This document shows, one piece after another, positions 7,145-50,597 of a stretch of DNA of 64,000 nt. Within the stretch, counting starts at the first letter, position 1, and each line of letters begins with the position of its first letter. Location: contig JAPMOS010000014.1 in assembly GCA_027972325.1 (NCBI GenBank), positions 266,001 to 330,000 on the forward strand, in the 5' to 3' direction. A program made the position numbers and the translations under genes. The notes beneath the pieces are model-generated. The model searched no databases, had not been told where the DNA came from, and saw nothing but the letters and a program-made list of their open reading frames with translations. Origin of the DNA: Paratrimastix pyriformis. Lineage: Eukaryota > Preaxostyla > Paratrimastigidae.

Positions 7145-8634
7145 ATGGCCACACAGCCCGCCACGCAGTCCACTGTGCTTCCATCCCCGCCTGGTGTTGT
7201 CTCTCTTCGCCCTGTCGCGTCTGAGCGTCGTTGTGAGCTCTTGGTGTACACCTACCCCTCCGCTCGCCCCCTCTTCGATGCCCTGATGCGGACTCACGCT
7301 GGGTCGTCCACAATTCCCACCCGCGAGGCCAAGTGCGATTGGGGAGAGTTTGAGACTGGCTGGCCTAACATCCATTTTGGTTCGTATTATTTCGATAATT
7401 TTTCTTGACGCCCAGAATTTAGAGGCGGGTGATTCCATCTATGGGCGTCATGCTGTTTTTTTGACCTCGTTTTACAAGCCCACCAATATTTTCCAGCAAA
7501 TTAGCCTTGCCATTGCCCTTCCTCGTAATCATGTCAAGAGTCTGACTGTTGTGGTTCCTTTCTTCGGTCCTGGCACAGTCTGTGACATTCTGCACAACAC
7601 GACATTTTTTTCTTGCTTCTCGCCTGCCATAGATGGAGCGTGTTGAAGAAGAGGGTGTTCTCGCCTCGGCCGAGACCATGGCCAAGATGCTGTCGGCCCC
7701 CATGCCCCTGACCAGCAGCGGCCCCACGACCATCATCATCTACGATATTCACGCACTCCAGGAACGGTTCGTCCTTTTTTTCACCTTTCGTTCCGGCCTC
7801 ACGGTCTGCCTCTCCGCAGGTTCTACTTCACGGATAATGTGCGGGTGCTGCTTGTGTCGGCAATCCCGACCCTGATGTCCTACATCAAGCAGGACGGCCG
7901 CAAAACTGTCCTGGTCTTCCCCGATGATGGAGCTGCGAAGCGCTTCGGCAAACGGGTCACGCTGCCTTACCTCGTCTGCGGCAAGGTCCGGTGGGCGGGG
8001 CTCTCCAACCGGTGAGTGCTGACTATTTTTTTTTTTTTTTTTTTTTTTTTTTTTTTTTTGGACAGGTCCGCGAGCGTGACGAGCGGTTCATCCGCATTCT
8101 GGACGGCAACAACATCGGGCTGGACACCTCCAAGCTGCGCCTGCGGGCCACCGATCCCGACGTGGGCTCGATCTTCACCGAGGAGGACCGTGATGCCCAG
8201 TTCCTCATCGTGGACGATCTCTGGTCTGCCCCGGTACCCCCCCGCTCGCCCGCCTCATCGGTGCGCTCGGGTGGGTAGCAACTCCGGTGCGACGCTGGTT
8301 CGCTGCGCGGAGGCCCTCCGCCTGAACGGGGCCCGCCGCATCAACGCCTACTGCACCCACGCCGTCTTTGGGAATGATTCGTGGCGCAAGTTCACCGAAG
8401 GCGGCCAATGGCACGACGTCTTTGACCGCTTCATCGGTCTGTGAACAGTCGCCAGGCGTGCCATTAGGCTGACGTTTTGTGGTCCTGGGTCCCGCAGTGA
8501 CGAACACCATCGTCGAGACGACCGAAAAGCTCAAGGGGACGGCGCCGTTTGTGGTGCTGGATATCACTCCCGACCTGTGGAACCACCTGACCTGCATGGT
8601 CGACTCATACGAGGGCAACGCCACCACCCACTAA
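7145..8634 (+). CDS. Ribose-phosphate pyrophosphokinase (PRPP synthetase), plant class II type
   Basis: The enzyme makes 5-phosphoribosyl diphosphate from ribose 5-phosphate and ATP for nucleotide synthesis. Motifs in order include [43 protein letters not shown] and the PRPP-binding loop VDDLCNSGATL. These match phosphate-independent class II enzymes of plants better than class I. Homology fixes seven exons: the introns include 7578-7632, 7767-7819, 7986-8065, 8224-8278 and 8437-8497, plus one near 7380-7422. Donors are GTTCGT, GTCTGT, GTTCGT, GTCCGG, GTCTGC and GTCTGT. The third-last intron holds a 32-nt T run before its acceptor. The start at 7145 is the first ATG and the gene ends in TAA. 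It is head-to-head with LRR-XKR and tail-to-tail with the SBDS gene. Confidence 0.9.
8028..8059 (+). repeat. Poly-T tract
   Basis: About 32 T lie just before the acceptor of the third-last PRPP synthetase intron, serving as an extreme polypyrimidine tract. Confidence 0.9.
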
Positions 8635-8769
8635 ATATCCGGTGTTGTGTTTTTTGCTTTGTAATGGCTTTTCACTCGTTTTGTAAATGACACCTTTCCG
8701 ACGCACGATCCCCAAGTCTTCTCTCGGCCAAAAAGAATCTGGCTTCTTCTTCTTCTTTCTTCCCGTCGT

Positions 8770-50200: not shown

Positions 50201-50597
50201 TCCACCCCCCCGGTCTCCACAACCCTGGCACTACCCTCCCGGTATCCACCTCCCCCCTGGTCTCCGCCACCCCTCCGGTCGTCCTGTGTCACCTCACTCA
50301 ACTCACACCTTGCATCCTCCATCCCTGGGGGGGCTGGTCGGTCATCGCGTCACGTTATCACGCTGCTGCCGCAGGGCCGAGCAGATCAACAACCCGGCCG
50401 TCAACCCGCACTACTGGCGCTACCGGATGCACGTGGGGCTGGAGGCGCTCATCGACCGGCCCGCCTTCGCGGCCGCCGTCCGGCAGCTGGTCGTCGAGGG
50501 CGGCCGCCACGGCTGCTACTTCGCAAAGGGCGAGCCCGACAGCCCCGACAGGCGCCGGCCCGTGGCCCCCGTCGCCCAGCACTGGGCGTGGCACTGA
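44291..50597 (+). CDS. DPE2: 4-alpha-glucanotransferase DPE2 (GH77 with CBM20 domains)
   Basis: DPE2 moves glucosyl units from maltose to cytosolic glucan acceptors. Two N-terminal starch-binding CBM20 modules are visible (FSRSAFRDVIFG ends the first; VVVYGEHSALGDYK starts the second). The GH77 core follows: WRGAG, VLPVNDTTLRKDWTDSYPYS, SVFALHPLYLRLD, KGDIAIGVNPDSVD, FRREYSTGAPPDAFS, the nucleophile region ASRIDHVLGFFRVW, the acid/base region LLCGEDLGLVP and SPSTHDQPVL. About twenty exons. Donors are mostly GTCTGC or GTCCGC, and one intron (45697-45812) begins GCCCGT. A long insert with a run of 16 acidic residues (48236-48286) interrupts the core, as inserts do in plant DPE2. A tRNA gene sits in intron 46463-46649. 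The ATG at 44291 is the first plausible start. The stop is TGA. Confidence 0.92.
46533..46603 (+). tRNA. tRNA-Asp (GTC)
   Basis: A 71-nt cloverleaf: acceptor GCTGGGG/CCCTAGC (one G-T pair), anticodon stem CTTGC/GCAAG with loop CTGTCAC (anticodon GTC), T arm CCGGG-TTCAATC-CCCGG, discriminator G as expected for Asp, and a TTTTT Pol III terminator right after it. It has no intron. It lies in the sense orientation inside a 187-nt DPE2 intron (46463-46649). Its body resembles eukaryotic tRNA-Gly, but the anticodon is Asp. Confidence 0.92.
48239..48286 (+). repeat. (GAT)n coding microsatellite in DPE2
   Basis: About fifteen GAT codons encode a poly-Asp run in the insert of the GH77 core. Confidence 0.9.

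Follow-up and report, generated by a model that had tools for sequence, protein, structure and literature searches.

Recognition of 5' splice sites in described systems

The 5' end of U1 snRNA is treated as near-invariant, even in lineages whose donors have changed (PMC10581693). That survey of the Saccharomycotina (230 species and ten outgroups) describes switches of the base at donor position +4; in the genomes where U1 and U6 could be identified, their interacting sequences were invariant. The U1 motif ACUUACC was invariant in 227 of the 230 species and nine of the ten outgroups, that is, in the 236 genomes in which it was identified. The +4 switches correlate with loss of METTL16 and SNRNP27K (PMC10581693). 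Entamoeba is described as having GUUUGU donors and as lacking U1, and recognition of the donor is ascribed to proteins (PMC6018208, PMC13292270). Fritillaria borealis has a strictly preserved U1 5' end together with non-canonical introns in which GT/AG has been abandoned (PMC13326754). The standard motif is kept in the U1 of Stentor and of nucleomorphs (PMC9505925, PMC6461891), and trypanosome U1 has been termed highly divergent (PMC4041458). For Pelomyxa, the available part gives intron numbers and GT-AG frequencies and contains no extended donor logo (PMC8887013). Earlier work is cited as having been unable to tie the variation among donors clearly to the sequence of U1 (PMC10599564). Human U1 has been altered at positions 5, 6 and 11, which redirected the choice of donor (PMC2766253). 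Published work is quoted here and below from the available parts of these papers. We found no description of U1 and its donors having been recoded naturally across a genome in the literature searched, most subscription papers lying outside it.

The window described here is a 64,000-base stretch of eukaryotic DNA (bases 266001-330000 of contig C46), with a GC content of 55-77% in steps of 4 kb. The assembly searched consists of 56,060,509 bases in 495 contigs. In this genome, the U1 sequence that reads donors, normally near-invariant, appears to have changed in step with the donors themselves.

Donor consensus

A preliminary description of the window had read nearly all of about 45 donors as GTYYGY or close variants, with C or T at +3 and G at +5, and had found no GTAAGT and one GTATGT among them. 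The donors were re-derived independently, leaving that list unused, by aligning conserved proteins drawn from PDB alignments to the genome. The splice-aware aligner applied a flat penalty to GT-AG introns and had zero preference at positions +3 to +6. This procedure fixed 67 junctions in 23 loci of conserved genes, from the following sources:

Prp8: 10 + 4 junctions
Hsp70: 4 junctions
PPP5: 6 junctions
Rab21: 5 junctions
Small GTPases: 38 junctions, 20 loci, one of which gave none

Junctions flanked on each side by at least five identical residues out of eight, with no gap, form a strict tier of 24 junctions in eight loci. In this tier 23 donors are GTYNG, 21 are GTYYG and none is GTRAG. Position +3 is occupied by C in 83% and by T in 17% of the donors, position +4 by T in 50% and C in 42%, position +5 by G in 96%, and position +6 by T in 50% and C in 42%. 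The frequency of G at position -1 is 0.79. The pyrimidine at +3 and the G at +5 of the preliminary description, as well as the lack of GTAAGT, are therefore confirmed. However, GTYYGY is too rigid. Because T and C are both common at +4 and at +6, GTYNGY, with GTCTGT as the best donor, is a fairer description.

The medium tier (45 junctions, 17 loci) contains 40 GTYNG, 38 GTYYG, a single GTATGT and no GTRAG. Many of the small GTPase junctions have low local identity, and 22 of the 67 junctions failed the medium tier; half of these 22 (11) are GTYYG and none is GTRAG. For the complete set the counts are 51 GTYNG and 49 GTYYG. The introns have the GT and AG ends of the major (U2-type) class and do not follow its GTRAGT consensus (GTRAG in 0 of 67). 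Prp8 contributes 13 of the 24 strict junctions; upon removing it, GTYNG was found by hand count in ten of the eleven junctions in the remaining seven loci, the exception being GTCTTT. This is the one donor off the consensus in the strict tier, and those in the medium tier are GTTCAC, GTCTCC, GTATGT and GTCTTC. The consensus had also been called genome-wide. In this respect it rests on the medium tier, which spans 14 of the 495 contigs (hand count), together with the whole-genome searches for U1 described below.

GC-rich composition or slippage of the junctions might mimic GTYYG, which is frequent by chance and makes up 8.5-10.7% of all GT. In the same loci, the background is 240 GTYYG and 51 GTRAG among 2238 GT. 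The strict count of 21 of 24 against this 10.7% has a binomial probability of 6e-18. When any of the 16 dinucleotides was allowed at the Prp8 donors, with an AG acceptor required, all 14 donors were identical to those found before, all were GT, and the alignment scores were the same. None of the positions to which the Prp8 junctions can be slid equivalently offers a GTRAG alternative.

The same motif was found with a simple exon-intron hidden Markov model (HMM) applied to 264 kb, of which 17.5 kb was masked. Whether it started from uniform donors or from a GTRAGT matrix, the HMM arrived at C/Y/G/Y for positions +3 to +6 by the third round; on reversed or dinucleotide-shuffled sequence this motif was not reached. 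In later rounds the donor motif was diluted because the exon state absorbed ever more sequence, and homology is for this reason the main evidence. With the donors held uniform, GTYYG was found at 83 of 232 donors, compared to 2075 of 24364 in the background, and GTRAG at 4 of 232, compared to 564 of 24364. On the + strand of the interval 7145..50597 of the window, the donor-blind HMM gave GTYYG at 8 of 22 donors and GTRAG at 0 of 22, and is noisier there because many of its junctions are misplaced. The background counts and the reversed and shuffled controls rule out an artifact of composition. Misreading of the donors would, moreover, leave the change in U1 unexplained, and there is scarcely any chance that it accounts for the consensus.

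An apparent enrichment of GTAAGT in 200 kb of contig C46 (40 against 10 expected) was rejected, since 33 of the 40 belong to a 19-bp tandem array. The array is situated at about 193.4-194.1 kb of the contig, has its 33 GTAAGT on the minus strand, and inflates the raw GTAAGT count of the contig.

Introns in the window

In the Rab21 gene of the window (36700-37361), GTCTGC or GTCTGT is found at all five junctions. The introns were placed by spliced alignment of human Rab21; the fractions give the identical residues on the two sides of each junction, and the slash marks the exon end.

36700..36776, + strand: Rab21 intron 1, AGG/GTCTGC ... TTAG, phase 1; 7/8 and 7/8
36914..36968, + strand: Rab21 intron 2, TGG/GTCTGTAT ... 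TTAG; 3/8 and 8/8
37003..37052, + strand: Rab21 intron 3, TTG/GTCTGC ... ATAG; 8/8 and 7/8
37080..37147, + strand: Rab21 intron 4, ACG/GTCTGT ... CCAG; 7/8 and 7/8
37314..37361, + strand: Rab21 intron 5, GGA/GTCTGT ... TTAG; 3/8 and 5/8

For the PRPP-synthetase-like gene and for DPE2, the PDB sequences are too distant for strict junctions. Three introns of the former were placed by the donor-blind HMM:

7767..7819, + strand: PRPP-synthetase-like intron, donor GTTCGT; homology too weak for strict placement
8224..8278, + strand: PRPP-synthetase-like intron, donor GTCTGC
8437..8497, + strand: PRPP-synthetase-like intron, donor GTCTGT

A tRNA gene (window 46533-46603, 57.2 bits) lies inside the predicted DPE2-like gene and, judged by eye, is probably intronic.

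U1 snRNA genes

The Rfam U1 model (RF00003), for which 41 of 992 candidates were scored, identified eight U1 loci on eight contigs with E values of 3.7e-13 to 2e-10. All eight are full length, covering model positions 1-166. Their scores, 60.2-50.8 bits, are under the Rfam gathering score of 69.5, and the loci were therefore classed as U1-type snRNAs whose 5' end is recoded rather than as ordinary members of the family.

In each of the eight genes found, U1 starts with AUACAGACCUUG, where the canonical start is AUACUUACCUG; the longer read of the 5' end, ATACAGACCTTG, is likewise common to all eight loci. The differences from canonical U1 are AG for UU at positions 5-6 and U for G at position 11. 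From the donors, an altered start of U1 (ACRGAC, for example) had been predicted, and AUACAGACC is indeed what the eight genes read. A pattern search of the whole genome, in which positions 5-6 were left free and up to three mismatches were allowed, returned exactly the eight loci, all with AG, and the reversed pattern gave no match anywhere in the genome. A U1 with the canonical AUACUUACC 5' end was found neither by this pattern nor among the candidates scored with the Rfam model. The sequence CCCATAA is present about 60 bases upstream of all eight U1 genes, as it is in U2, U5 and U6.

When the recoded U1 is folded without proteins, CAGAC at positions 4-8 of its 5' end forms pairs with GUUUG in the Sm-site region of the same RNA. 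U1 with the canonical UU keeps its 5' end unpaired in such a fold.

Pairing of U1 with the donors

In the standard register, U1 position 5 faces +4 and position 6 faces +3. When the 16 possible dinucleotides at U1 positions 5-6 were ranked by the number of Watson-Crick pairs they form with the donors, AG came first in all three tiers, showing that the U1 5' end is complementary to the donors of its own genome. The canonical UU ranked 16th in the strict tier, 14th in the medium tier and 16th for all junctions. Ranking by duplex energy placed GG first and AG second, GG being slightly better because many donors have C at +4. The mean duplex energy of the strict donors is -7.76 kcal/mol with their own U1 and -3.35 kcal/mol with canonical U1. 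Sixteen of these 24 donors pair better with their own U1, six equally well and two worse. In the donor of Rab21 intron 2, GTCTGTAT, the intron side complements the recoded U1 5' end, as read from the U1 sequence, up to position +8.

These observations suggest a mechanism in which positions 5 and 6 of U1, serving GT-AG introns of the major class, changed from UU to A and G. The best donor would then be AG/GUCUGU, with +3C pairing to G6 and +4U to A5, while C4 of the recoded U1 would still read +5G and A3 would read +6U. The weaker donors GUCCGC, GUUCGU and GUUUGU would hold positions +1, +2 and +5, with wobble or no pairing elsewhere. From U1 the donor would be handed over to an unchanged U6. 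Points that weigh against this mechanism are the U1 scores under the Rfam gathering score, the slightly better energy of GG, the donors off the consensus, the dilution of the motif in later HMM rounds and the pairing of the U1 5' end with its own Sm-site region. A choice of donor driven by pairing would be in agreement with observations on the human particle, in which U1-C makes no base-specific contact to the donor, which is selected chiefly through its pairing with U1 (PMC4383343).

Other components of the spliceosome

U6 is canonical and carries GAUACAGAGA in all four loci. The partner change in U6 that had been suggested along with that in U1 is hence absent; it is also not needed, because the ACA of U6 already pairs with +4U, +5G and +6U. 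The recognition sequences of U2, GUGUAGUAUC (three copies read of nine full-length), and of U5, CGCCUUUUACU (three read of seven), are kept. An alteration of U6, U2 or U5 was thus rejected for the copies read (four, three and three, respectively).

The U1-C gene is present on contig C68, split over several exons, and encodes a complete zinc finger (78.8 bits). Of the proteins expected on U1 (Sm proteins, U1-70K and U1-C), it is the one whose gene was found. Its three introns, read by eye, have the donors GTTCCG, which is off the consensus, GTCTGT and GTTTGT. SNRNP27K retains its YMNRKG stretch (76.7 bits), and its donors were read by eye as GTCTGC and GTCGGG; the five donors of these two genes are outside the 67. 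A METTL16-type domain (PF05971) with the NPPF motif was found at 70.7 bits, the match extending over profile positions 166-272 of 299 only. No loss of METTL16 and SNRNP27K was observed: members of both families are present, the METTL16-type match being partial.

The first match to the zf-U1 profile (C86:24809-24916) was rejected as U1-C in favor of the gene on C68. The protein at C86, with an apparent WW domain downstream, looks more like WBP4/FBP21 than like U1-C.

It is conceivable that pairing with U6, or the preferences of proteins, let the donors drift while U1 pairing was irrelevant, as in the yeasts with +4U or as claimed for Entamoeba. The fit of the U6 ACA to the last three donor positions would be in line with this, as would the two precedents: in the Saccharomycotina +4 switched and U1 stayed the same (PMC10581693), and Entamoeba has GUUUGU donors with U1 described as absent (PMC6018208, PMC13292270). 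However, U1 is present here in eight copies, its changes at positions 5 and 6 fall precisely opposite +4 and +3, and pairing with U6 leaves +3C unexplained. The presence of SNRNP27K and of the partial PF05971 domain also departs from the yeast pattern. Such drift is a very improbable explanation compared to recoding of U1.

The upstream element CCCATAA is located at -57 to -67 in all 18 snRNA loci read (eight U1, three U2, three U5 and four U6). In its position and in the range of snRNA genes that carry it, the element resembles the Dictyostelium upstream sequence element, which is found about 60 nucleotides upstream of both Pol II and Pol III genes (PMC7919456). Taken by itself, this resemblance would suggest an amoebozoan, although that study does not expect the Dictyostelium element to be present outside Dictyostelia.

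A U6atac gene is situated at C445:22122-22254. It scores 46.6 bits against a cut-off of 33, has CCCATAA at -65 and terminates in oligo-T. Because this gene exists, a minor spliceosome is probably present, as judged from sequence. The recoded U1 might then serve most introns, and a second, canonical U1 or the minor spliceosome a minority of GTRAGT or U12-type introns. Besides U6atac, the small fraction of candidates scored in the Rfam search leaves room for such a mixed system. Against it stands the absence of GTRAG from the 67 donors. Moreover, any U1 that kept the canonical 5' end would be expected to outscore the recoded U1 in the Rfam model, yet none was found. The U12-type donor RTATCCTT occurs at none of the 67 junctions and nowhere in the 264 kb, of which 17.5 kb had been masked. 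A mixed system is thus unlikely.

Significance of the U1 change

There is little doubt that the helix between U1 and the 5' splice site has been recoded within an otherwise ordinary major spliceosome; that this U1 is expressed, is assembled and selects donors by pairing we infer from the genome. The departures of the donors and of U1 from the canonical sequences coincide at precisely the positions that pair, and the recognition sequences of U2, U5 and U6 are kept in the copies read. If expression bears this out, the genome represents a natural compensatory experiment, in which the first recognition step could be rewritten genome-wide with the hand-over to U6 unaltered. It would also show such rewriting without the losses of METTL16 and SNRNP27K that accompany +4 changes in yeasts.

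In human and yeast U1, positions 5 and 6 are both pseudouridines. With the uridines gone from both positions, these pseudouridines are gone as well. Gene finders and U1 searches based on GTRAGT and ACUUACC can fail on genomes of this kind.

Comparison with known systems

The U1 described here is similar to canonical U1 (RF00003) in its length, its end-to-end match to the model, the promoter shared with other snRNA genes, the register on the donor and the accompanying U1-C. It differs at positions 5-6 and 11, and its donors are GTYNGY instead of GTRAGT.

As in the Saccharomycotina, there is a genome-wide shift of +4 toward U with the same U6 ACAGA. However, U1 and +3 are altered here as well, and METTL16-type and SNRNP27K members are present; the combination of unchanged U1 and loss of both proteins, which characterizes the switch in those yeasts, is not found.

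The donors resemble those of Entamoeba in having pyrimidines at +3 and +4, G at +5 and U at +6. The difference is that U1 is reported absent there, whereas here it is present and recoded. It is possible, if rather doubtful, that the recoding is common to an amoebozoan clade including Entamoeba, whose "missing" U1 would be similarly rewritten and overlooked by searches based on ACUUACC. This offers a testable hypothesis for the supposed lack of U1 in Entamoeba.

Fritillaria borealis likewise has donors that are off the standard genome-wide, but in the present genome GT/AG is kept and it is U1 that is altered.

In the engineered human U1, the same positions 5, 6 and 11 were changed and the choice of donor followed (PMC2766253). 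That U1 is a laboratory construct acting on single reporters, whereas the recoded U1 described here is natural and is found in all eight U1 genes identified.
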